Below, piece by piece: positions 8,811 to 62,252 of a stretch of 64,000 nt of DNA (position 1 is the stretch's first letter; every line of letters begins with the position of its first letter). Source of the stretch: Armatimonadota bacterium (GTDB lineage: Bacteria; Armatimonadota; Fimbriimonadia; Fimbriimonadales; ATM1); NCBI GenBank assembly GCA_003577165.1, contig QEUM01000009.1:1-64000 (forward strand), in the 5' to 3' direction. The translations under genes and the position numbers were made by a program. The notes below the pieces were generated by a model, which saw nothing but the letters and a program-made list of their open reading frames with translations, was not told the DNA's origin and searched no databases.

Positions 8811-9225
8811 GTGATGCAAGGACGGTACCCCAGGCCCGCCTGGTTCGGGAGAGTCAAGGCTGAGATCGTCGACTGGTGTGCCCATGGCCGGCCCTTCCAG
8901 GGGGTAGGGCTTCGCATGCTTGCCGTGACGGCCGAGTATCGGTTCGCATCGAGATTGCAGCGGCTCCGCGTTGTGCGTCTTGGGAACGAGCTTTGCATCC
9001 TGCTCCGAATGGCACAGAGGGAGGACAAAGCGGCGGATGCTAGGGCACTTGTCTACTGAACGGGCTTGCCGCACCTCGGAAGATGCGTCAACTTGTGGTT
9101 GTCAGAAAGCCCACTTTCAAGAGCGATCGAGTGGCAGACGGTCTACCGCCGGGACCGAGGGGCTACGACGGCGGGCGCGTCTGAGCGATGGCAGAAAGAT
9201 CTCGGAATCTTATCGTGGGAAAGGT

Positions 9226-9253
9226 TTGGCGTTTTCGGAAAAGTGTGTTATCT
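9226..9253 (+). promoter_or_regulatory. Candidate sigma-70 promoter of second PEP-CTERM gene
   Basis: TTGGCG (9226-9231) and TTATCT (9248-9253) are separated by 16 bp and lie about 90 bp before the ATG at 9345. Both boxes are imperfect. Confidence 0.4.
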
Positions 9254-9269
9254 TGTAAGCATGCACGAA

Positions 9270-9304
9270 GCCCCGCGGGGCACGTGGCGGGTCGGCGCCG
9301 ACCC
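9270..9304 (+). repeat. Two adjacent perfect palindromes in the leader
   Basis: GCCCCGCGGGGC (9270-9281) and GGGTCGGCGCCGACCC (9289-9304) are both perfect palindromes, seven bases apart, downstream of the likely transcription start and upstream of the PEP-CTERM coding sequence. They could be operators, a structured leader, or a transcriptional roadblock. Confidence 0.6.
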
Positions 9305-9344
9305 GGACGGCACGGCCTCGGCGGGGAAAGGGAGAACGAGAGTC

Positions 9345-10301
9345 ATGACTCGACGCAAATGGGCCACAGTAAGTAGGGCGGGAATCGTTTTGGCTGCGGT
9401 CTTCGCCTGCCAGGCGGCGGCCTCGCTCGGATGGAATGTGGATTTCGACAGCCGGAGTTTGCCTCCCGTGCTGGGGGGTGGCCTGCCTTCGGATTCGTTC
9501 GGCGCAGCGTCAGGGCAGATAGGCCGTTGGAACTACGTACCCGTGACTGGAGGCGAAAGTTGGCCGCTTGTGGACGTATTCGGGAACGCGACCGGGGTGC
9601 AGTACCACGGCGACGGAATGTCGGGCGGAGGGGGCGGCTACAACGACCCGTACAACGTCGGCGACTATAGGCTCCTGATGAACGACTACAATCTGACGGA
9701 GCCGCGAGGGTGGTTCTACCTCACCGGCGTGCCGAACGGCAGGTACCGAGTCTACACGTATGCGGCCCATCCTTTCAGCGCGTACAGGCCCCTGCAAATC
9801 TCACTTTCAGGCGCGGAGACTGGCCAGAATCCGCAGATTGTCACGGGTCCCCTCGTTCCAAATCAGTTTCAACATCTCATCACACATAGCATCCATTACA
9901 TTACGGTGAGCGATGGAACGATCCGCTGGGATCTCGTTAACGAGCCCTGGATGCCGGGGGTACCCATTAATGGATTCCAAGTCGTGCATATACCTGAACC
10001 CGCGAGTCTAATCGCGATGGGAGGAGCGCTGGCAGCGCTCCTGATTAGAAAGGGACGATTTCGTCCGAGAAGGACGAAAGAACAAATTTTGCGCAGGCGC
10101 CTTCGCGCAACCGGGAACGCCCTGGGAGCGCAGGTGGCATCCAACGGCCAGCGGCCCCGACGAGGGCATGGCGGTCTGCAGCGACAAGTTCGGAAATTTC
10201 TACGTCGTGGGAACGACGAGCAATACTTCGTCTACAGAAGATGTCGTCGTGTTGTCCTACGACATCGCCGGCAATTTCCGCTGGCAGCAACACTACGATA
10301 A
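9345..10301 (+). CDS. PEP-CTERM exported protein with an aberrant C-terminal extension
   Basis: A 318-residue protein with signal peptide (KWATVSRAGIVLAAVFACQAAAS) and a secreted beta-type domain. A PEP-CTERM signal starts at about residue 216 (IPEPAS, hydrophobic GALAALLI, basic RKGRFRPRR). Normally the protein would stop there, but it runs on for about 80 Arg/Gln-rich residues. That tail is the out-of-frame reading of a beta-propeller relic (see 10102-10347), so the original stop was probably lost in a deletion or fusion. Whether the tail blocks sorting is unknown. ATG 9345 is preceded by a weak GGGAGAACGAG. Confidence 0.7.
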   Translation: MTRRKWATVSRAGIVLAAVFACQAAASLGWNVDFDSRSLPPVLGGGLPSDSFGAASGQIGRWNYVPVTGGESWPLVDVFGNATGVQYHGDGMSGGGGGYNDPYNVGDYRLLMNDYNLTEPRGWFYLTGVPNGRYRVYTYAAHPFSAYRPLQISLSGAETGQNPQIVTGPLVPNQFQHLITHSIHYITVSDGTIRWDLVNEPWMPGVPINGFQVVHIPEPASLIAMGGALAALLIRKGRFRPRRTKEQILRRRLRATGNALGAQVASNGQRPRRGHGGLQRQVRKFLRRGNDEQYFVYRRCRRVVLRHRRQFPLAATLR

Positions 10302-27960: not shown

Positions 27961-28777
27961 ACCGATTCGGCTTCTCGCGGTAGACCTCGACTTCACACTC
28001 CTCGATTCGAACCGGGAAATCCCGGAGGCGAATCGCCGCGCAGTCCGCAGAGCCTGGGAAGCGGGCATCACGGTCGTTCTCGCCAGCGGCCGAATCGCGT
28101 CCGGGATGGCACGCTTCGCCGATCACCTCAAACTGTCCACTCCCTTGGTGGCCTGCAACGGTGCGCTCGTCATCGACGGCAACGGCCAGACGGTTGTCGA
28201 GCGGACGTGCCATCCGGAGGTCTCGCGCCGAATCCTCGACTACTGCCGAGCCCACGACCACCACGTCCACGTGTACGCGGAGGGGGCGATCTGGTTCGCG
28301 GAGCCGGACGCTTACGCGGGAACCTATCTCTCCCGCGCCCGACAGCCGGACCACCGGTTCGTGGGCTGGGAGGCTCTTTACTCCTTCGAGCCGATCAAGC
28401 TGGTCGTCATGGGTGAACCCGAGGAGGTCGCGAGGGCCCGAAGTGGCCTGTCGGAAACCGTAGGCCCGGATCGGTCGTCTGTCACGGTGTCGGAGGCGGA
28501 GTACCTGGAGTTCCTCCCCGCAGAATGCTCGAAGGCAACCGGGCTCGGCGCCCTGGCGGAGCGGCTTGGGATCGCTCGCGACGAGGTCGCCGCCATCGGC
28601 GACTACGAGAACGACCTCGAGATGGTCCGGTGGGCCGGGTTCGGAGCGGCGGTCGGCAACGCCCTACCGGAGGTTCAGGCGGCAGCCGACGTTGTAGTAG
28701 GTACGAATGACGAGGGCGGTGTCGCCCAGTTCATTGACCTTCTACTTGAAAATCGTGGACAATCTCAGGTGGTGTGA
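27953..28777 (+). CDS. HAD-superfamily phosphatase, Cof type
   Basis: About 274 residues of a Cof-type HAD phosphatase, most likely acting on sugar phosphates. Motif I is AVDLDFTLLDS (nucleophile and acid Asp, with Phe where Gly is usual), motif II is VVLASGRI, a lysine lies in FEPIKLVVMG, and motif III/IV is AIGDYENDLEMV. The C2 cap domain occupies the middle. The GTG at 27953 overlaps the aminotransferase stop by eight bases, so the two are coupled. Substrate unknown; the context suggests a sugar phosphate in the same pathway. Confidence 0.88.
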   Translation: MSKPIRLLAVDLDFTLLDSNREIPEANRRAVRRAWEAGITVVLASGRIASGMARFADHLKLSTPLVACNGALVIDGNGQTVVERTCHPEVSRRILDYCRAHDHHVHVYAEGAIWFAEPDAYAGTYLSRARQPDHRFVGWEALYSFEPIKLVVMGEPEEVARARSGLSETVGPDRSSVTVSEAEYLEFLPAECSKATGLGALAERLGIARDEVAAIGDYENDLEMVRWAGFGAAVGNALPEVQAAADVVVGTNDEGGVAQFIDLLLENRGQSQVV

Positions 28778-28856: not shown

Positions 28857-29861
28857 ATGAAAACACTGTTATGGAAGACCGTCGCGCTGGCAGGCGCCGT
28901 GCTCAGCGCGCAGGCCGCCTTAAGTCAGGGCGTGCTCATCGTGACCAGCCCGGCCGACGGAGCGTTCGTCGGGTCGACGACCACGATCAGTTTCAGGATT
29001 GACAACGGCGTGCGAGAAGTCACGGTTCGGGCCGAGATCACGGCCCAAGTGGGTGGAGGCGCGACGGCCATTGAAACACGAGTCACGCCCGACTCCAATG
29101 GAGACGCCAGCGGCTCCCTCACCTGGAATCCGAGCGACGCATTCGATGAGGGGCTCTACGACATCCACGTCACGGCAACGGAACAGGGGAACGTATACAA
29201 CGACGTTGACTTGACCGTAACTCTTGACCGGAAGAAGCCCGAACTGACAGATCACACGCCGCAGAACAACAGTTTCGTGAACGGCATCGTCACGATCACC
29301 GCGGAAATCGAAGAACTCAATCTCGACTCGTGGCGAGTGACAGTGAACAACCAAGACATTCCGTTCAACACGGGCAACACGCCCACCATCTCCGTCACCT
29401 GGGACACCTCCAACATCGAGGACGATGGGGAGCAGGAAATCAAATTCATCATCAAGGACCTGGCGCAAAATCAACAGGAGATCACCGTCTCGGTGTTTCT
29501 TGATCGGCAGTCACCGACTGTGACCGTGCTGACGCCGAGGACCGATCAGCAGATTCCGCCGCTTTCGACGCTTGGCGTCGCGTTCGACGTTGCTGACGCG
29601 GCGCACAACTCCGTTTCAATCTCTGGAATCTTAGTTGAGATTCGATTGCTCGATGGCACGTTGGTGAAGCGCGTTTCGAGGCTTCGATATGGCCAAGTCA
29701 ACGACACCACTTCGAGATGGATGGGTAGAGTCCGGTTGCGGCTCCCAGAGGGCGTGTCCAACTTCAAACTCGTCATCACAGTAGTCGACAAGGCCGGAAA
29801 CCCGACGGTCATCCAGGAAGTGCCGCTGCAGTACTCGCGGGGGCGGGGTCGAGGCAGGTAG
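28857..29861 (+). CDS. Exported protein with Ig-like domains
   Basis: A 334-residue exported protein; signal peptide KTVALAGAVLSAQAALSQG. The mature chain looks like three tandem Ig-like beta-sandwich domains of about 95 residues. Each opens with a similar phrase: VLIVTSPADGAFVGSTTTIS, then PELTDHTPQNNSFVNGIVTI and PTVTVLTPRTDQQIPPLST. Domains one and two end before DRKKP and DRQSP. The C-terminus is basic (SRGRGRGR). It heads a plus-strand group with the barrel protein 48 bp downstream. Binding or structural function in the envelope is inferred. Confidence 0.7.
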   Translation: MKTLLWKTVALAGAVLSAQAALSQGVLIVTSPADGAFVGSTTTISFRIDNGVREVTVRAEITAQVGGGATAIETRVTPDSNGDASGSLTWNPSDAFDEGLYDIHVTATEQGNVYNDVDLTVTLDRKKPELTDHTPQNNSFVNGIVTITAEIEELNLDSWRVTVNNQDIPFNTGNTPTISVTWDTSNIEDDGEQEIKFIIKDLAQNQQEITVSVFLDRQSPTVTVLTPRTDQQIPPLSTLGVAFDVADAAHNSVSISGILVEIRLLDGTLVKRVSRLRYGQVNDTTSRWMGRVRLRLPEGVSNFKLVITVVDKAGNPTVIQEVPLQYSRGRGRGR

Positions 29862-29909
29862 TCTGGCAAGAGAAGAGTTCTACATTCCGTAGGAGGAAGG
29901 GAAAACAGG

Positions 29910-31064
29910 ATGAAATACGACGCATGGACGCGGAGCGCAGCGGGAGTTGCGCTCATTCTGCTGGGCACGATTTCGAACGCTCAGGTGCCTGATCTGCTGA
30001 ACGCGTTCGAGATGGGCGGCCGAGCGATGGGTATGGGTGGGGGCACCTACTCGAACTCTTCAGACCCGAGCGCGAGTTACTGGAATCCGGCGGGCCTGGC
30101 TCACATCAGCAGCACGACGGTTCAAATGGACTTCCGAAACCGACCTGGATCGGATACCAGTGTGTCGGGGTCCTTCGTTGACCCGGACAGGAGCGCGGAC
30201 GGCCAGTACGGGTCGAATGCGATCACGTTTGCCGGAGTCGCTACGCCGTTCGGCAAGGGAGTTCTCGGTCTAAGTTATGCTGTCGGCGGCTGGATTCGCG
30301 ACGACGCCAGAAATGACAGCGATCTGCACAGCGGAGACCCTGGGGATCCGACGGTCGTTACCACGTTCATCGACTTCCTGAAGGTCTACACCGAGTTCGT
30401 CACACTCGCATATGGGACGGGGAGCGGAAGAGGGACCACGTTCGGCGTCGGCATCGTGTTCGCACGACAGAACCTGAATAACGACGTGTTTGTTCGCACT
30501 GAGGACGGCTCGGGCGGCCTGATCAGCGAGACGCTTACGGAAGTGTCCTCGAATGGATTCGGGCTCGGCGGCATCGTCGGAGTCCAATTCGTCCCTCCGT
30601 CCAACCCGAACGTCTCCTTCGGGCTCAGCTACCGATCTGAAATCCAACTTAACGACGTCGAAGATGGCGAGCCGTACGGCGACACGATTCCCGCCAGGCT
30701 TCAGGCAGGCCTCGTGTTCCGGCGAGATGGACTGCGCGGAGGCCGAGACTATCTCGTAGGCGGCATAGACGCTTCGTACTTCTTCCCGGCCAACGACGGT
30801 CGAATTCTGGAGAGGGACTCGCAACTCGCATTTGGCGGCGGAGTCGAATACAACTGGTCCCAGGCGTTCGGCTACATCCCGTTCCGCGTCGGCTTCCGAT
30901 CCGTGCAAGAAGCCGGGGAGGGATTCGCAAACCGCGACGTCTTTACATTCGGCGTAGGGTACAGGCCGACTAGCGGCGACTGGACGATCGACTTGTCGAT
31001 TGCCACGGCTTCCGGACAAAGCCGACCCGACCTTGCGATCTCCATGACGTTCTTTAATCGCTAA
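29910..31064 (+). CDS. PorV/FadL-like outer-membrane beta-barrel protein
   Basis: A 384-residue protein with signal peptide (AAGVALILLGTISNA). The mature N-terminus, NAFEMGGRAMGMGGGTYSNS followed by DPSASYWNPAGLA, is the hallmark of the OMPP1/FadL and PorV group. The rest alternates amphipathic strands (GLSYAVGGW, TLAYGTGSGRGTTFGVG, VSFGLSYRS, FTFGVGYRPTSGDWTIDLSI) and ends in FFNR, fitting a barrel C-terminus. AGGAGGAAGG before ATG 29910 is strong. PorV in type IX secretion works with the caspase-fold PorU, and here a caspase-like gene follows 13 bp later; whether that is meaningful is unknown. Confidence 0.78.
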   Translation: MKYDAWTRSAAGVALILLGTISNAQVPDLLNAFEMGGRAMGMGGGTYSNSSDPSASYWNPAGLAHISSTTVQMDFRNRPGSDTSVSGSFVDPDRSADGQYGSNAITFAGVATPFGKGVLGLSYAVGGWIRDDARNDSDLHSGDPGDPTVVTTFIDFLKVYTEFVTLAYGTGSGRGTTFGVGIVFARQNLNNDVFVRTEDGSGGLISETLTEVSSNGFGLGGIVGVQFVPPSNPNVSFGLSYRSEIQLNDVEDGEPYGDTIPARLQAGLVFRRDGLRGGRDYLVGGIDASYFFPANDGRILERDSQLAFGGGVEYNWSQAFGYIPFRVGFRSVQEAGEGFANRDVFTFGVGYRPTSGDWTIDLSIATASGQSRPDLAISMTFFNR

Positions 31065-31077
31065 CCGAGGAATTCGT

Positions 31078-32367
31078 ATGAAGGTACAGAAGGCGCTCGT
31101 TCTCTCTCTCTGCGCACTCGCCAGTGTCTCTGCCACTGCGCAAAAGTGGGCGCATGCCTATCAAGAGGGCCTCGAAGCTGCGAAGAGGAGTGACTGGGCA
31201 AAAGCGCGCGAGCGGTTCTTGGACGCGATCGCGGATCGTCCCCAAGATAGCGCGTCGCCGAGCACGGTGGGCAGCAGCGTCCTCGACCGGCAACCGTGGC
31301 GCAACGGTTCCCCCTACTCTCCCAACTTTGCGGCGGCGTACTGCTCCTTCAAACTCGCGGCCACCAGCCCGGATGGGCCCGTCCGAAAGCAGCACTTGGA
31401 AACCGCGATTTCAGGCTTCAACACGCTCATCAACGGTGGTCAAGAGAGCATCGAGTCGCTCCTATTCTTGGCTGCGGCGTACGCGGCGGCGAACGACACC
31501 AGCACGAGTTCGAAAGTGCAGGAACGCCTGAACAAGGTGGACCCCGCGAAGTCATTCAAGGTGGATCGCGAGGTCCTCGAGTTCGCTGACTTGCGAGTGC
31601 TCCAAGGCACGGCAGCCCCGGGCGAGGAGGGGACCGGGATCGGACGCATCAACGACATCCTCAATCCCGCGCCTGGAGACATGGTCGGCGTCGTTCCAGT
31701 TCTCGATTACAAGTTTGCGCTCATCGTCGGCAACAACTCGGCTTCCGGAGGCTCATTCGGTGCCGCAGACGCGAACCTCATCCGTTCCGCGCTAATGCGG
31801 CACGGTGGCTACGCGGAAAGCAACATCGTCGTCTTGACCGGCGCGACGTCGGACCAGATCGCGGCGGCGGCGGACCAATTGAGCAGTAGGATGCCGGAGA
31901 ACGGCACGATCCTCATTTTCTACAGTGGCAACGTGCACACGGATGAGAACGGCAGAGACTATCTCGTGGGAACGGAAGGCGGCAAGGGCATCTTGAAGAC
32001 GGAGTTGTTCCAACGATTCGTTTCGAAGGCCGCGTCAGTCTTCTCGTTCTTCCAAGTGGACAGACCTGTCGGCAATAGCGGTGTGTACTTTGGGCGCGAC
32101 GTGCCGGCTGTTGGGAAGATCGCACAGTGCATCGGCACTGCGCCGGGAGAACGCACCCAATCCGCGGCGATCGGCGGCGAGACCCACGGGGTCTACGCGG
32201 CGGCGTTTGCAGAAGTCTTAGGCGAGGTCCGAAACAACCGGATTCCGATTCTCGACTTCGCTTGGGAGCTCTTCTACAAGGTCCGTTCCGGCGCGTCGCA
32301 GGCGGGGGGTCTTCAGACACCTACCCTCCCGGTGCTCGTCAGTCTTGACGGCGCCGCGAGATTTTAG
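31078..32367 (+). CDS. Exported TPR protein with a catalytically degenerate caspase-like domain
   Basis: A 429-residue protein; signal peptide (ALVLSLCALASVSATAQ), TPR-like helices at about 25-160, then a metacaspase/C14-like domain at about 210-425. The fold markers are present: YKFALIVGNN, a helix of the DANLIRSALM type, NIVVLTGATSDQI, TILIFYSGN, HGVYAAAFAEVLGEV and a final QTPTLPVL. The usual SGHG histidine is replaced (SGN, residues 283-285), and the DxCxSG cysteine region reads QVDRPVGNSG with no cysteine. It is therefore a pseudo-protease, probably a periplasmic binding or scaffold protein. GAGGAA precedes ATG 31078, 13 bp after the barrel gene. Confidence 0.72.
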   Translation: MKVQKALVLSLCALASVSATAQKWAHAYQEGLEAAKRSDWAKARERFLDAIADRPQDSASPSTVGSSVLDRQPWRNGSPYSPNFAAAYCSFKLAATSPDGPVRKQHLETAISGFNTLINGGQESIESLLFLAAAYAAANDTSTSSKVQERLNKVDPAKSFKVDREVLEFADLRVLQGTAAPGEEGTGIGRINDILNPAPGDMVGVVPVLDYKFALIVGNNSASGGSFGAADANLIRSALMRHGGYAESNIVVLTGATSDQIAAAADQLSSRMPENGTILIFYSGNVHTDENGRDYLVGTEGGKGILKTELFQRFVSKAASVFSFFQVDRPVGNSGVYFGRDVPAVGKIAQCIGTAPGERTQSAAIGGETHGVYAAAFAEVLGEVRNNRIPILDFAWELFYKVRSGASQAGGLQTPTLPVLVSLDGAARF

Positions 32368-32390
32368 GCCTGCCCAATCGTCTTGAAGAT

Positions 32391-33260
32391 GTGCCTCGAC
32401 TCACTTCGGACGAGGTTGCACGAGCCTTAGGGCTGTTGGCCGGAATCCTCGCGGCCGGCTACGCAAAAGAACGCCTGCTTCCAGCTGCGAACGCTTCGAT
32501 TGGTGCGGAATTCACCAACCTGCATGAACTCCGTGAGGGCCTAAGCAATGCAGAGTCCTCCTTCCGGCTCCTGATCGGTTACTACGCCGCCCTTCGCCGA
32601 GGGGGGGACCCGGAGTTCCTCAGCGAGGCATTCCTTGAGGCCTTCGACCGCACTCTCGAGGACAGTGAGTTCGAGGATTTCCTGGATTCGGGCGACACCG
32701 AGGCTTTGTGGCTGAGTTTTTGTGAGGTCTGCGGCGAGCGGCAGCGGCGAGTCGATGAGGCCCAAACCCGACCCGTCTTGACGGGATTGGCGGCGCTCGC
32801 AATGGAGACGTTTGCCGCCCGCGGGCACGGGAACCTCCACGCGTGGATCGAGGACACAGTCCGCGCAACTCGACAGGTTGAGCCCATCTTTGAACGCTTC
32901 AAGGAAACCAAAACCGTCGGACCGAAGACGGCGAGCCACATACTGAGGGATGCAGCAATCGTCTTCAGATTCGAAGTGTCTGTGGCTCCTGCGGACCGAC
33001 TCTATCTTCACCCAGTCGGGGTCACGCTTCGCAGACTGGCTTTGTGGCTTCTCCCCGACTCCGAAGAAAGGAAACTGCCGGATTGGGTGCTCGCAGGAAA
33101 GTTCTCGAAAGTCTGCAGACTTCATCGCGTATCCGGTGTTCACGCGAATGCAGGAGCCACCCACTTCGGTTTCAGAATCGCACCGCTCTATCCGAACTTT
33201 GAGGAGGCCGTGCGGGAAGTACTGCTACGCGATTCCCAGCCTGTGCGCGGCAATCACTAA
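32391..33260 (+). CDS. Protein of unknown function with a helix-hairpin-helix-like segment
   Basis: A 289-residue protein without signal peptide, starting at GTG 32391, 23 bp after the pseudo-caspase gene. The first 170 residues are helical and acidic (FLSEAFLEAFDRTLEDSEFE). Residues about 175-215 read ETKTVGPKTASHILRDAAIV, then APADRLYLHPVGVTLRR. VGPKTASHILRD resembles the hairpin of HhH DNA glycosylases, and the following Asp could match their catalytic position. The C-terminus (SGVHANAGATHFGFRI) has no recognised family. A nucleic-acid role is speculative. It overlaps the convergent coaX end by 36 bp. Confidence 0.5.
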   Translation: MPRLTSDEVARALGLLAGILAAGYAKERLLPAANASIGAEFTNLHELREGLSNAESSFRLLIGYYAALRRGGDPEFLSEAFLEAFDRTLEDSEFEDFLDSGDTEALWLSFCEVCGERQRRVDEAQTRPVLTGLAALAMETFAARGHGNLHAWIEDTVRATRQVEPIFERFKETKTVGPKTASHILRDAAIVFRFEVSVAPADRLYLHPVGVTLRRLALWLLPDSEERKLPDWVLAGKFSKVCRLHRVSGVHANAGATHFGFRIAPLYPNFEEAVREVLLRDSQPVRGNH

Positions 33261-47049: not shown

Positions 47050-50000
47050 ATGGTCTTGGCTTATCGATTCCGAAAGATTGCGGGCGCGTTCAAGCCGCAA
47101 AGAAACTTGCTTCTTGGCGCGCTCCTGCTCGCTCCGACCGCGCTCCTCGCCGTAGGCGGAGAGGGTGTGTCTCTGCAGTTCACTGCGAACGACAAACTGT
47201 TCCTTTGGATTTCGCTCGCGCTAGCCGTTCTCGCGATCGTGACCGGCTTCTTGATCATGTCCTGGGTGCAGAAGCAGCCCGGAGGCAGCGAGAAGATGCA
47301 GGAGGTCAGCGCAGCCATCAAACAAGGAGCGCTGGCCTATTTACGTCGGCAATTCAAGACGATGGGCATTTTCGTCGTCGTCCTCGCTGTCGGCCTGTAC
47401 TTGCTATACCGACAGGACTACGAGGGAATCAAAGTCCTCGGGATCGACGCGTCTATTTGGCTCGCCATCTGTTTTGTATTGGGCGTTCTTGCCTCTTATA
47501 TCGCCGGCTATGTCGGAATGATGATGGCAGTGAGCGCAAACGCGCGCGTAGCGAACGCGGCTCTCTCCAGTTATAAGAGCGCGCTCGAAATCGCGTTCCG
47601 AAGCGGCGCTGTTGCCGGCCTCATTACTGTCGGCATGGGCCTGTTGGGCGCAACGCTCATCTTCCTCGTTGCCGGCGGTGAGGCGATGCGGCTGCTGATC
47701 GGATTCGGCTTCGGCGGATCGCTCGCGGCGCTCTTCATGCGTGTCGGCGGCGGCATCTACACGAAGGCGGCCGATGTGGGCGCCGACCTCGTCGGAAAAG
47801 TCGAAGCCGGGATTCCCGAAGACGATCCTCGCAACGCGGCGACGATCGCGGACAACGTCGGCGACAACGTCGGCGACTGCGCGGGGATGGCCGCAGACGT
47901 TTTCGAATCCTACGAAGTGACTCTGGTCGCTGCAATCGTGTTGGGCGCAGCGACAGCGGCCGTTTTCGACCAGTCCACGTGGATGAAACTCGTGCTGTTC
48001 GCCCTGATGGCCCGCGGCGTCGGAATCGTCGCCTCGATCCTCGGCGTGTTCATGGTGCGAGGCAAAGACGATGAGAACCTCGATCCTTTGAAGCCGATTC
48101 GCTCGGGCTTCCGCTCCAGCGCGATCATCGCTTCCGTCGGCACCCTGGGTCTTGCGTTCCTCATGATGCAGGACATCAACACGACGTATTACGTCGACGC
48201 CGACAACAAGACGCACGGCGGTATTCGTGTCATTCCGTTCGAAGAGATCAAGGCGCTCGGAGCGATGGCGGACGTCCGCGATCAGTTGGAGGCCGCCGCC
48301 ACCGACAAAGACAGGGACGAATTCGCAGCGTTATCGCACAAGGATCTGACGGATAAGGTCAACGAGCACATCGACACGATCTACAAGCAGGACCTCCAAA
48401 CCTACGAAGCGAACAAGCAGTTCCTTCCGCCGAACACGCCTGCTCCCAAGAAGCCGACCCCGGTGGACGAGGAACTGGTCAAGAAACTGAGGACCAGCCC
48501 GCTTCTCAACTACACCTTCGTGATGGGGACGTCGGCTGCAGGCAACGTCATGCAGGCGTTCTCGCGAGGCCTCGCAGAAGGCATCTTCCTAACCCAGACC
48601 GAAATGGAGGCGCCACCGGATACGACCGGGCAGACTCCGCAGCCCCCCAAGAAGCAGATCCAGTGGCAGGTCTATTCCAAGATGCAACTCGACCAGTTGG
48701 AGAGCGGCGGCCAATTGAAGGTTCTGGGAAGGCATGAGATCCAACTCGGCGCGGACACTCGCGGTGAGATGTTCTGGCTCGTCGGTACGAGCGACGTAAA
48801 GGTCACCACTGTCTCGAACAAGGACGCGGCGACGAAGGCGCTCGCCGAGGGACTCGGCATCGACACAGCGAAGGCGTCTTCAATGCTGGCCAAGTTGCCC
48901 GCCACGGTGTTCTCCGGCGCGACGGCGCACACCGCCGCGAACCTGCGAGACAAGCTCTCCGCGGCCGGTGCGACCGTTGCCATCGAACGCACGAATCTCG
49001 GCGAAGGCTTCAAAGAGAAAGGGCTCGTCTCGATGGGCAGCATCGAGTACACCAAGTCGCGCGTGAAGATGCCGGAGCCGGGCGGCGAACAGCCCGTGGT
49101 TCGACCAGACGGCAAGTGGCTGACGGTCGCGGGCGAGACCAACGTCGTCGAGTGGTGGCGATTCTTCATCGCCATCTTCTTCGGAATCATCATGGCTTTC
49201 GGAATCGAGGGACTCACCGACTACTTTGTGAGCTTCGAGAAGAAGCCCGTTCGAGAGGTGGCAGCTGCATCCTCGGCCGGTCCCGCACCCATGATCATCC
49301 AAGGCATGGCGTACGGAATGGAGAGCAGCGTGTGGTCGGTCATCGCGATCGTCGTGTCATTGCTGGCCCCGCTATTCATCTTTCCAAGCGGTGAGTACGG
49401 TGGCTACCTGCTGAGTTTCTACGGCATCGCGCTTGTCGGTCTTGGATTGCTAACGACCACCGGCTACATTCTCGCGATGGACACCTTTGGACCGATCTCG
49501 GATAACGCGCAAGGCGTGTACGAGATGTCGAAGGCTGGGCATGGTGAGCAGAAGGAAGCTGGCAAGATGTCGGGCACGAGGGCGGTCCAACTTCTGGACG
49601 CCGCAGGCAACACGACGAAGGCGCTCACGAAAGGCTTCGCGATCGCGACGGCCGTCGTGGCCGCCGTTGCTCTGTTCCACTCATTCATCGAATCAGCCAA
49701 GCTGACCGACGTTGGATTGCGCCTCGAACTGCCGCAAATCTTCATCGGCATGATGGTCGGGGGGGCGGCTCCCTTCCTGTTCTCAGCGTTCTCAATCAAC
49801 GCTGTTGGTCGCGCGAGTTTCAAGTTGATCGGTGAAGTGCGCAGGCAGTTCGCCGCAGATCCGGGGATCATGGCGGGAACGAGCAAGCCCGACTACGCCC
49901 GGTGCGTTGCAATCGTGACGCAGGCGGCGCAGCAGGAACTGCTTGGACCGGGAATCCTGGCCATCGCCTTCCCCGCACTCGTCGCGTTCGGCTTGTCGAT

Positions 50001-50448
50001 CGGGCAAGAACCGACTGTTATCGGCGGTGTCAGTTACAACCTGGTGGGCGCGCAAGCGCTCGGCGGATTCCTTGCAGGAGCGATCCTGAGCGGCCAACTC
50101 CTCGCGGTGACGCTCGCCAATGCCGGCGGCCTTTGGGACAATGCGAAAAAGAGAATCGAGGATGGACACCACGGAGGCAAAGGATCGGATGCGCACAAGG
50201 CGGGCGTGGTCTGTGACACGGTCGGCGACCCGTTCAAGGACACTGCCGGCCCGGCTCTCAACCCCCTCATCAAGGTGATGAACCTCGTTGCCGTCCTTCT
50301 CGTTCCGATCGTGATTCGCGATCTCGGCGATGGAGTGCTGATCACCATTTCGGTCGTGTGCATCGTCGCCCTTGCGATCGCGGCCTACTGGTCGAAGCGC
50401 GGCTCTCTCGGTACGGAACTGCAGAAGTCTGCGGGCGCCGCAGACTAA
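47050..50448 (+). CDS. hppA: Membrane-bound H+-pumping pyrophosphatase with a ~320-residue inserted loop
   Basis: An ion-pumping pyrophosphatase that couples PPi hydrolysis to proton export. Catalytic loops are intact: DVGADLVGKVE (242-252), DNVGDNVGD (268-276), DTFGPISDNA (811-820) and GKGSDAHKAG with DTVGDPFKDT (1043-1065). GNTTKALTKG (853-862) has lysine where K+-dependent enzymes have alanine, so K+-independent H+ pumping is expected. At 1132 residues it is far longer than the usual 650-800 because of an insert at about 374-697, between the eighth and ninth membrane helices, a loop facing outward in known structures. Residues 581-646 of the insert resemble a bL12 C-terminal domain. ATG 47050; no clear Shine-Dalgarno. 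Confidence 0.93.
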   Translation: MVLAYRFRKIAGAFKPQRNLLLGALLLAPTALLAVGGEGVSLQFTANDKLFLWISLALAVLAIVTGFLIMSWVQKQPGGSEKMQEVSAAIKQGALAYLRRQFKTMGIFVVVLAVGLYLLYRQDYEGIKVLGIDASIWLAICFVLGVLASYIAGYVGMMMAVSANARVANAALSSYKSALEIAFRSGAVAGLITVGMGLLGATLIFLVAGGEAMRLLIGFGFGGSLAALFMRVGGGIYTKAADVGADLVGKVEAGIPEDDPRNAATIADNVGDNVGDCAGMAADVFESYEVTLVAAIVLGAATAAVFDQSTWMKLVLFALMARGVGIVASILGVFMVRGKDDENLDPLKPIRSGFRSSAIIASVGTLGLAFLMMQDINTTYYVDADNKTHGGIRVIPFEEIKALGAMADVRDQLEAAATDKDRDEFAALSHKDLTDKVNEHIDTIYKQDLQTYEANKQFLPPNTPAPKKPTPVDEELVKKLRTSPLLNYTFVMGTSAAGNVMQAFSRGLAEGIFLTQTEMEAPPDTTGQTPQPPKKQIQWQVYSKMQLDQLESGGQLKVLGRHEIQLGADTRGEMFWLVGTSDVKVTTVSNKDAATKALAEGLGIDTAKASSMLAKLPATVFSGATAHTAANLRDKLSAAGATVAIERTNLGEGFKEKGLVSMGSIEYTKSRVKMPEPGGEQPVVRPDGKWLTVAGETNVVEWWRFFIAIFFGIIMAFGIEGLTDYFVSFEKKPVREVAAASSAGPAPMIIQGMAYGMESSVWSVIAIVVSLLAPLFIFPSGEYGGYLLSFYGIALVGLGLLTTTGYILAMDTFGPISDNAQGVYEMSKAGHGEQKEAGKMSGTRAVQLLDAAGNTTKALTKGFAIATAVVAAVALFHSFIESAKLTDVGLRLELPQIFIGMMVGGAAPFLFSAFSINAVGRASFKLIGEVRRQFAADPGIMAGTSKPDYARCVAIVTQAAQQELLGPGILAIAFPALVAFGLSIGQEPTVIGGVSYNLVGAQALGGFLAGAILSGQLLAVTLANAGGLWDNAKKRIEDGHHGGKGSDAHKAGVVCDTVGDPFKDTAGPALNPLIKVMNLVAVLLVPIVIRDLGDGVLITISVVCIVALAIAAYWSKRGSLGTELQKSAGAAD

Positions 50449-59249: not shown

Positions 59250-62200
59250 CTACTCTTTGTTCCTAAAGACGACGCCAACCTCGGCTTCGCCTTTTGCAGA
59301 GTCTTGCGATGGCTCGGGGCCCTTCTTCCGGCCTTTGGGCCTCTCTCGCCGACTCGGCTTCTTTTGCGCTTTCTGCTGAGGTTCGGGCCTTGTTCGTCTT
59401 CTGGTGGGCTTTGGCTGAGCGACCTCGTCGAGTTCCTCAGAATCTGCCGTCGCGTCCATGACGATGGACATGAGGGCCAGGAACTCGTCGACTTCCTGAG
59501 GCGCAGCCTCGACGGAGAGGTCGAGTCCTTTTGCGGCGTCGTCCTCCTCCACTGCGGGGGGGAGGTCCAGTTCGCGCGCGAGGATTTGGTTCGTATCCAA
59601 GGAGGCAAGTTCCTTGACGTCTTCTTGCTCGCCTACGAGGAACACTTGGGTCGCGCCGTCGGTAGCCTGGCTCTTCAGGTGCGTCGTGTCTTGCGCGACC
59701 ATGTCGCCCTCAATTACGTCGTATGCGTGCCACCGATCGGGAAGGGTCGCCGTTCTATGGCCGGCGCCTCGATAGTGAATCGACAAGAATGGCGGTCGTG
59801 CGTGCACGACATCACCGTGGTAGTTCCAGACTTGTACGCCCGCAAGTTGGCACAGACCTCGGATGATCTTCTCGTTGATCAGAGGCTCGCCGAGGAACGC
59901 GGTCCGCCAGGCGTGTTCCGGAGTCTCGCCGCGAACTTCGCGGACGACGAACGATGGGAGGCCCGTCTGCGTGTATTCACCCAGCACCACGGCGTTCTCC
60001 TCAGGAATTGCGAAGTAACTCGGCTCAAGCTGGTCCACGACGCTCAGCGCTCTCTCTTCAAGAAGCTCCGTGAGAGGGTGCTTGCGACTCAAAATGGTCG
60101 TGCCGGCTCGGCTGTTGAAGGGCTGCGGCCGAATCGCGATGCCGGTGACTTCCCTCACCCGCTCGATCGCGCTTCTTCCGTTCTCGAAGAGGCCGGCAGC
60201 GTACACCCAAAACAGAGTCTTCCCCCCCCGCTGGAGGCGCGACTTGATCGCCTCTCTCACTTCGGGGCGGACGTCCCATGCGTTCAGGAACACGTAAAGT
60301 TTCGCATCAGGAAACCGGCTTCTGTGCGCGAGGTCGGACAGAAGATAAAAGCCCGCGGACACTCCAGCCCTCAGGACGGCTTCGCGCGAGTCCTGAACCA
60401 GTTGCTTGAAGGCCTTTCGATCGCTGAGGTACGCGAGGCTTCGCTCGTCGATGAGCACCGCCACATCTGGGTCGGTGGACGTCGTCGCGGAGGCCCGGAT
60501 CAGAGCATCGCGGACCTTCTCCGCGCGCTTCCAGATCGCCGGGGTGTTGAGCCAGCCGTTGCCCCAGAGGTCCATCCAGGAGAGGCCGTGTCCGTGCGCG
60601 AGGGCGCTCCCCAGGCCTCGCCAGTGGGCAGCTTCCAGCGCCTGAGGCGTCTCCATCACCGGGTTGAAGTCATCCGGTTCGCGGGCTGTGCTGATCGCGG
60701 TCTTGAAATCCTCTTCGCTAATGAACAGTTTGCCGTTGAGGGCAAAACTGTCCACGGGTCCGGGAAAGGCGGCCGCCCCCCCCATCTCGCGATCGCGGTA
60801 ACTGGGTGGCCCACAAATGATGTCGATCTCCCGCGTCCTCAGCAGTTTCCCGAGACTGAGATGGCCGCTTGCAGGATGCGACCACTCAAACGTGTATCCG
60901 TAACTCACCGCAACGAGCAAGTAGCCTTTGCTCGCCTCCTTGACCTTCCAGGCCAACCTCTGAATCCGGCTGACCATGGCGTCGCTCAGGAAGAGATGGT
61001 AATCAACCCAGCGACGCTCTTTGCGATTGGCGCGCAAAAACCCTTCGCGCGAGAGCGGATACTCGTTGAAGTCCGGAACTCGGAGGCGATCGAACGACGC
61101 CCTTCCGTCGAACCAAGCCGACTGCAGCGCCACAACATCCCCGCCATATCGAACTTCGGCCCATTCACGAAACGCGCGTTCGGCGGCAACGCTGCTGTCG
61201 TATCCCCAATCGTCTGCGAAAAACCACTCGCCGCGATCGAGGTGAAGCCCCAGTATGCGTTCCGCATTCTCAAGCGTTCGCAGTCCTCGGACAAAACCGC
61301 CCAGCAGCCTCTCGGCCTCCGACCAGAAGGCGTGGTCGCACACGCTCGGCTCGGCGGGCGTGCCGTCGACGTACCGGAAGAACCCGTCCGGATACTTTTT
61401 CTCCCACTGAGGCGGCCCCGAGAACACGACTCGAAACATCACGAGTGCGTCCGGATCGGCCTCCAATGCCCTCTGCAGGAGGTATGCGGAGATGTCGAGG
61501 GCCGTTTGCGCCCCCTCTTCCGAGACGGTGAACTCGACGTGCAGGCAATGAAGGTGCACGCCGGCTCCTGCGGCCTTTCGAACCTCTCCGAATGTGGTGT
61601 CGGCCTTTGCCTCCGTTTGCGGGTTGCCGAAGAACATCAGCGGAGGAACGAGCCGGTGATTGACGACGAGCTGCGGCTTGCCGGAGAGGAGGACGATCCG
61701 TGGTGCGTCCGCCGGCACATCGACTTTCGTCAGGTCCTCAGCAAAGAGAAAAGCGGGCCTTCGGGGGGGGCGTTGCGGCGGCTGCTGAGTTTTTGCCTTC
61801 GACGCATGACGGCGCGAAGGCGCCCTGGTTTCTGCCCGTGGCGGAGCGGCCTTTTCCCGGACTTTCTCGGCGGGTTGCGCGCTGCTCGAATCGCGCGATG
61901 CTCTTCGTCTCCGCCCGCCCGTCTTCGGCGCCTGCGATGGCGGGGCTTCGCTCTTCCGCGGCGCCTTCTGCGCGCCAGAGGTGTCCCGGAAGCGCACGCC
62001 CACTCCTAAATCGGCTTCTGGCGCGGTCGCTTTGGCGTCAGGTTCCTGCCGCTGCTTCGCGCCCCGCTTCGGTCTCGGCTTTGGAGTGGCCCGAGCGTTA
62101 GAACCTTTCGGTCCCGGCGGCCCCGAATCGGCAGCGCCTGCTTCGGACGGGTCATGTCCGTGCTCTGCGATTTCGGGGGTGCTGCCCTCCAGATTCGGAT

Positions 62201-62252
62201 CTGCTGTTGAATCAGCTTTAAAAAGTTTCGGGATGATTTTCCGCCATCTCAC
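59250..62252 (-). CDS. GH42-like glycoside hydrolase-fold protein with long charged disordered tails
   Basis: A 1000-residue protein from GTG 62252. The centre (about 165-900) resembles a GH42-type beta-galactosidase: barrel phrases FFGNPQTEAKADTTFGEVRK, GLHLDRGEWFFADDWGY (candidate acid Glu), FNPVMETPQALEAAHWRGLG (candidate nucleophile Glu) and a later trimerisation-like domain (KLYVFLNAWDVRPEVREAI). No signal peptide is seen. Residues 1-165 and about 925-1000 are Lys/Arg/Pro/Ala-rich and disordered; each ends in a similar phrase, GVGVRFRD (83-90) and VGVVFRN (992-998). Such tails suggest nucleic-acid or partner binding. era follows six bases later. Confidence 0.62.
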   Translation of the reverse strand: MRWRKIIPKLFKADSTADPNLEGSTPEIAEHGHDPSEAGAADSGPPGPKGSNARATPKPRPKRGAKQRQEPDAKATAPEADLGVGVRFRDTSGAQKAPRKSEAPPSQAPKTGGRRRRASRDSSSAQPAEKVREKAAPPRAETRAPSRRHASKAKTQQPPQRPPRRPAFLFAEDLTKVDVPADAPRIVLLSGKPQLVVNHRLVPPLMFFGNPQTEAKADTTFGEVRKAAGAGVHLHCLHVEFTVSEEGAQTALDISAYLLQRALEADPDALVMFRVVFSGPPQWEKKYPDGFFRYVDGTPAEPSVCDHAFWSEAERLLGGFVRGLRTLENAERILGLHLDRGEWFFADDWGYDSSVAAERAFREWAEVRYGGDVVALQSAWFDGRASFDRLRVPDFNEYPLSREGFLRANRKERRWVDYHLFLSDAMVSRIQRLAWKVKEASKGYLLVAVSYGYTFEWSHPASGHLSLGKLLRTREIDIICGPPSYRDREMGGAAAFPGPVDSFALNGKLFISEEDFKTAISTAREPDDFNPVMETPQALEAAHWRGLGSALAHGHGLSWMDLWGNGWLNTPAIWKRAEKVRDALIRASATTSTDPDVAVLIDERSLAYLSDRKAFKQLVQDSREAVLRAGVSAGFYLLSDLAHRSRFPDAKLYVFLNAWDVRPEVREAIKSRLQRGGKTLFWVYAAGLFENGRSAIERVREVTGIAIRPQPFNSRAGTTILSRKHPLTELLEERALSVVDQLEPSYFAIPEENAVVLGEYTQTGLPSFVVREVRGETPEHAWRTAFLGEPLINEKIIRGLCQLAGVQVWNYHGDVVHARPPFLSIHYRGAGHRTATLPDRWHAYDVIEGDMVAQDTTHLKSQATDGATQVFLVGEQEDVKELASLDTNQILARELDLPPAVEEDDAAKGLDLSVEAAPQEVDEFLALMSIVMDATADSEELDEVAQPKPTRRRTRPEPQQKAQKKPSRRERPKGRKKGPEPSQDSAKGEAEVGVVFRNKE

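Follow-up and report, generated by a model that had tools for sequence, protein, structure and literature searches.

What do an exported Ig-like protein, an outer-membrane beta-barrel and a caspase-like protein do when their genes lie side by side in a genome of the Armatimonadota order Fimbriimonadales? The question is raised by four consecutive genes in the window, by which we mean the whole 64,000-nucleotide stretch of DNA that was analysed, from a genome of 2.75 Mb in 23 contigs. The initial annotation read them as one operon of an undescribed envelope or secretion system, with a possible link to type IX secretion.

Gene layout and conservation

The ORF check of the window places four ORFs on the plus strand, separated by 48, 13 and 23 bp, in agreement with the coordinates first given:

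28857..29861, plus strand: exported protein with about three bacterial Ig-like domains (Pfam Big_7, Big_13, Big_3_2), 334 aa, first gene of the module
29910..31064, plus strand: putative outer-membrane beta-barrel of the PorV/FadL superfamily (weak profile similarity), 384 aa
31078..32367, plus strand: exported TPR and pseudo-caspase protein (Peptidase_C14 and TPR models in orthologues, AF2 fold), 429 aa
32391..33260, plus strand: cytoplasmic helix-hairpin-helix protein, possibly HhH-GPD glycosylase-like, 289 aa, GTG start, outside the module

All four genes are under strong purifying selection (dN/dS), so none of them is a chance ORF. A scan of the window gave one promoter-like site (28734-28763) and four terminator-like sites, no more than in shuffled sequence, and a search for Rfam and tRNA features found none. 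Signal-peptide-like N-termini were called by a simple heuristic, which recovered them in 34 of 37 orthologues of the Ig protein, 37 of 38 of the barrel, 36 of 38 of the caspase-like protein and 2 of 23 of the fourth gene product.

The named relatives are Armatimonadetes, labelled mostly as Fimbriimonadales or Fimbriimonadaceae. Gene order is conserved among them, a point that the initial annotation had proposed to check: the first three genes are present in the same order and on the same strand at 37 of 43 independent named genome loci. Three further loci end at a contig edge beyond the barrel and caspase genes, and three (L077, L083 and L099) hold the caspase gene without Ig and barrel genes. 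Throughout the fetched neighbourhoods the genes run Ig, barrel, caspase on a shared strand, most gaps are shorter than 60 bp, and the module often lies behind a HAD phosphatase gene and faces coaX-glmM-grpE. This synteny spans four families.

Among the 61 relatives' genomes, 39 carry the third gene and 38 the barrel gene, and every barrel-bearing genome also has the caspase gene. The module is single-copy per genome. Across the phylum, 96 of 291 genomes contain matches to the third gene at E<=1e-8. Because the matches outside the order are short generic caspase-domain stretches only (at most about 51 bits), the pseudo-caspase family looks order-specific by sequence, with members in families f1, f3, f4 and f5. 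Where the caspase gene is lacking, in f2, g24, g30, g47 and a g10 subgroup, no barrel and no close Ig homologue were found either. Since f2 and several genera do without it, the module is dispensable.

The fourth gene does not belong to this unit. It occurs in f2, which has no module, in another neighbourhood, and it is missing from many module carriers; the proposed four-gene operon is thus upheld for the Ig, barrel and caspase genes across the order and abandoned for the last gene. The window copy of its product has no Pfam match. Members of its family share a GVGPKTAS-type HhH motif, in which GPK is invariant, and a conserved QPID/QPVD. The best PDB sequence match is the N-glycosylase/DNA lyase 3fhf (E 0.63), and the best sensible folds are MutY (probability 0.85) and OGG1 (0.41), at E 0.47 or worse and TM 0.3-0.4. 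Motif and predicted fold tentatively suggest an HhH-GPD glycosylase-like protein. The family (32391-33260 in the window) is spread over Fimbriimonadales and has no Pfam model of its own; it may be an unrecognised branch of DNA glycosylases.

The caspase gene is kept without Ig and barrel in four genomes of three lineages (G142, G161/G162 and G134; 77-92% complete). At L077, L083 and L099 the missing pair was not found elsewhere in the genome. In the caspase tree these caspase-only loci pair, with strong support, with barrel-bearing members (L077 with L119, L083 with L101, L099 with the L089 group), a pattern best read as three independent losses of Ig and barrel together, with the pseudo-caspase surviving. 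Because presence is nested and the caspase-only loci sit beside barrel-bearing members, Ig and barrel behave as a pair that is dependent on the caspase protein, and not the reverse. The pseudo-caspase is retained in three lineages without the pair, so it must act without them too. One genome, G141, has an Ig gene and a barrel frame that ends short at an assembly break, and no match to the caspase; at 77% completeness it was left out of the nested-presence count, as was G155 (70% complete).

The caspase-like protein

The predicted layout of the third gene product comprises TPR-like helices at about residues 23-160 and a caspase fold at about 205-405. The window copy alone gives no match to Pfam caspase models; Peptidase_C14 (PF00656) is matched by 27 of 34 orthologues (best 8.4e-13) and TPR models by up to 15 of 34. 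Its AlphaFold (AF2) model has a pLDDT of 86.9 and a pTM of 0.64, and a Foldseek comparison with known structures returns metacaspases, caspases including caspase-9, and MALT1 (E ~2e-8, probability 1.0). Both the profile and the fold matches extend across the part that corresponds to p10 in MALT1 and caspases, a part that pseudo-orthocaspases lack. Based on this model, the protein is predicted to have a caspase-superfamily (C14) fold.

Two sites in the window mark the former active site:

31927..31932, plus strand: lost catalytic His site, residues G284-N285 (S-G-H-G in active homologues, S-G-N-V in the window)
32053..32067, plus strand: remnant of the QACRG active-site pentapeptide, Q-V-D-R-P, residues 326-330 (Q/E and R persist, Cys is gone)

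The protease had been described as inactive-looking, and the comparison makes a stronger case than that description. Aligned with active homologues of the order, none of 71 distinct members, drawn from across the order, keeps the catalytic His or Cys. The His column never contains His and is mostly V, A or Q. In the automatic alignment the Cys column is Arg in all 71; when QACRG is slid by one residue over Q-x-[N/D/H/S]-R there is still no Cys in any member. The loss of the dyad is therefore independent of the alignment register. Other residues of the pentapeptide persist, with R329 kept in 34 of 34 orthologues and Q326 in 29, the other 5 having E. As a positive control, both His and Cys are intact in 13 of 13 paralogous genes (14 frames) that were selected by profile alone; some of the active caspases in the control set had been picked by motif, and the evidence is limited to these profile-only frames.

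In close pairs the dN/dS of the caspase gene is ~0.02-0.05, similar to that of neighbouring genes. A decaying protease is ruled out by these values and by the conserved length. Because the dyad is gone order-wide while dN/dS is low, the third gene is best interpreted as a maintained pseudoenzyme. All 37 complete sequences end in Phe (codon 32362-32364 in the window), which closes a conserved QTPTLP...RF tail, and this free C-terminal aromatic suggests a recognised end.

The pseudo-caspase might then be a stand-alone periplasmic regulator, for example a decoy that binds the substrates or C-terminal peptides of another protease, with the Ig and barrel genes merely co-expressed. Such a role would fit its survival alone in three lineages, the invariant Phe with the recognised end that it suggests, and the presence of active caspase homologues in the same genomes. 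We nevertheless consider it quite unlikely, given that the synteny is maintained across four families and that Ig and barrel were not found without the pseudo-caspase in the compared genomes, with the exception of G141, where the assembly ends inside the barrel gene.

Many genomes hold a second caspase homologue, mostly of ~1000 aa, with SGHG and DACR intact (L153-L160, L165, L170 and L174). The source genome has, in addition, four Peptidase_C14 matches within ~16 kb (G000:C22, ~286641-302565), two of which fall in frames longer than 1200 aa; this cluster of caspase homologues is separate from the module and lies outside the window.

The barrel, the Ig protein and type IX secretion

The Ig protein of the window matches Big_7 (1.6e-7), together with Big_13 and Big_3_2, and its orthologues are syntenic in relatives. 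The barrel matches two related models: Toluene_X/FadL (2.9e-5, residues 30-248), under the gathering score, and PorV_fam (1.4e-10), with 41.3 bits against a curated cut-off of 90. All 31 barrel orthologues searched match PorV_fam, each under the cut-off, and 12 of the 31 match Toluene_X. Weak PDB profile matches were obtained to PorV (6h3i) and to 3dwo, a FadL-type outer-membrane protein. The C-terminal residue is Lys in most module barrels. A candidate second Ig-barrel pair in G011 (L161) was rejected, as its second barrel follows a long upstream protein in which there is no Ig match.

PorU and the gingipains combine a caspase fold with an Ig domain. This parallel, the position of the barrel within the PorV/FadL superfamily and marginal TIGR04183 tails in some relatives are what would speak for a type IX secretion system in reduced or divergent form, with a PorV-like shuttle, a PorU-like caspase-fold sortase and Ig-domain cargo. 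SprA/Sov was found in none of the 61 genomes above the 200-bit cut-off; only ~95-residue stretches of 17-48 bits were recovered, and these partial matches occur whether or not a genome has the module. The barrel falls under the PorV-family cut-off in 61 of 61 genomes, and the caspase is nearest to C14, MALT1 and metacaspases, with its catalytic residues gone. A check for a C-terminal sorting domain on the Ig protein, again one that had been proposed, gave no TIGR04183 match at E<=1 (NCBIfam). The best sorting-domain score in the source genome is 21.7 bits, below the cut-off of 23 and not on the Ig protein. Marginal tails elsewhere do not track the module: tails above the cut-off are also present in the module-less f2, and the search gives signal in a Deinobacterium control as well. 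Based on the SprA, PorV cut-off and sorting-domain tests, we reject the suggested type IX link; this reading is largely refuted, and we regard it as very improbable. A separate T9SS-type tail (TIGR04183, 42.5 bits, over the cut-off) is encoded at G005:C34:6111-6362, in a genome without SprA.

The same barrel data leave room for a FadL-like channel that would pass small hydrophobic molecules, and to which the Ig protein and the pseudo-caspase would be accessory binding or stability factors. The Toluene_X/FadL matches in 12 of 31 orthologues and the presence of 3dwo among the PDB matches are consistent with it, but the tight tie of the barrel to the other two proteins and the survival of the pseudo-caspase alone are left unexplained, and we consider such a channel rather unlikely.

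A proposed envelope module and its relation to known systems

The reading that we prefer, and hold with about even confidence, is that the first three genes form one Fimbriimonadales envelope module encoding a complex at the outer membrane, scaffolded by a non-catalytic caspase. The barrel would lie in the outer membrane, as its family suggests. Its partner would be the exported Ig protein, held there much like the Ig-fold sorting domains that PorV-type shuttle barrels bind in Bacteroidota, and the TPR/pseudo-caspase protein would be a periplasmic, non-catalytic scaffold. The TPR part and the dead peptide-binding cleft of the latter may hold a peptide without cutting it, possibly the tail of a partner. 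We infer each of these elements, that is, the outer-membrane location, the physical complex, the peptide binding and the cellular role. Of the envelope or secretion system first suggested, an envelope complex would still be the best reading; the term secretion system is unsupported by the SprA, PorV and sorting-domain tests. Tentatively, and with some doubt, we propose further that the dead caspase may organise a PorV-superfamily barrel and its Ig partner in the periplasm, or serve as their peptide receptor, in an undescribed system that parallels PorU/PorV independently of type IX secretion.

The analogy draws on the type IX attachment machinery. Type A sorting domains have an Ig fold. PorV is a shuttle that recognises them (PMC12618676). 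Like PorV/PorU, the module sets a PorV-superfamily barrel beside a caspase-fold protein and an Ig-fold partner; unlike it, the module has no SprA and no sorting domain, and its caspase is C14-like rather than C25 and catalytically dead. The likeness to FadL/OMPP1/TodX transporters (PF03349) consists of the weak sequence match over residues 30-248 of the barrel, whereas the window barrel scores under the gathering score and the operon partners differ.

Pseudo-orthocaspases are known, mostly from Alphaproteobacteria and Cyanobacteria; their dyad is most often Tyr-Ser, and in some alphaproteobacterial ones there are C-terminal TPRs (PMC6426788). Dyad substitutions had been noted earlier (PMC3501461), and Armatimonadota are mentioned in neither of these two papers. 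The module protein resembles pseudo-orthocaspases in its caspase p20-type domain and its substituted His-Cys dyad, as well as in the TPRs that some of them carry. It differs in being exported, in its N-terminal TPR-like part and in its tie to a barrel operon. Its substitutions also differ from Tyr-Ser: mostly V/A/Q stand in for His, and N/D/H/S, or R depending on the alignment register, for Cys. A dead caspase fold retained for binding, as we infer for the module, has a likeness in the human pseudo-caspase cFLIP(L), although the latter is a cytosolic regulator of eukaryotic apoptosis in an unrelated system (PMC7586951).

A search of open-access papers turned up no description of an exported pseudo-caspase with a fixed place in a barrel/Ig operon. 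Most bacterial pseudo-caspases on record come from phototrophs, and little has been reported on their partners. In this order, synteny and nested presence connect one of them to particular exported partners, which provides a concrete setting for the role of a dead caspase, and a PorV-superfamily barrel is seen outside the gene context of type IX secretion.

Three other features of the window were observed. At 9066-10301 there is a marginal match to the PEP-CTERM motif (19.7 bits, cut-off 20.7). A 1000-codon open frame without a Pfam match lies on the minus strand at 59250-62252, and the other strand there has a frame of 901 codons. An inorganic H+ pyrophosphatase encoded at 47050-50448 has 1132 aa and matches a 645-position model in two stretches, which suggests a large insertion.
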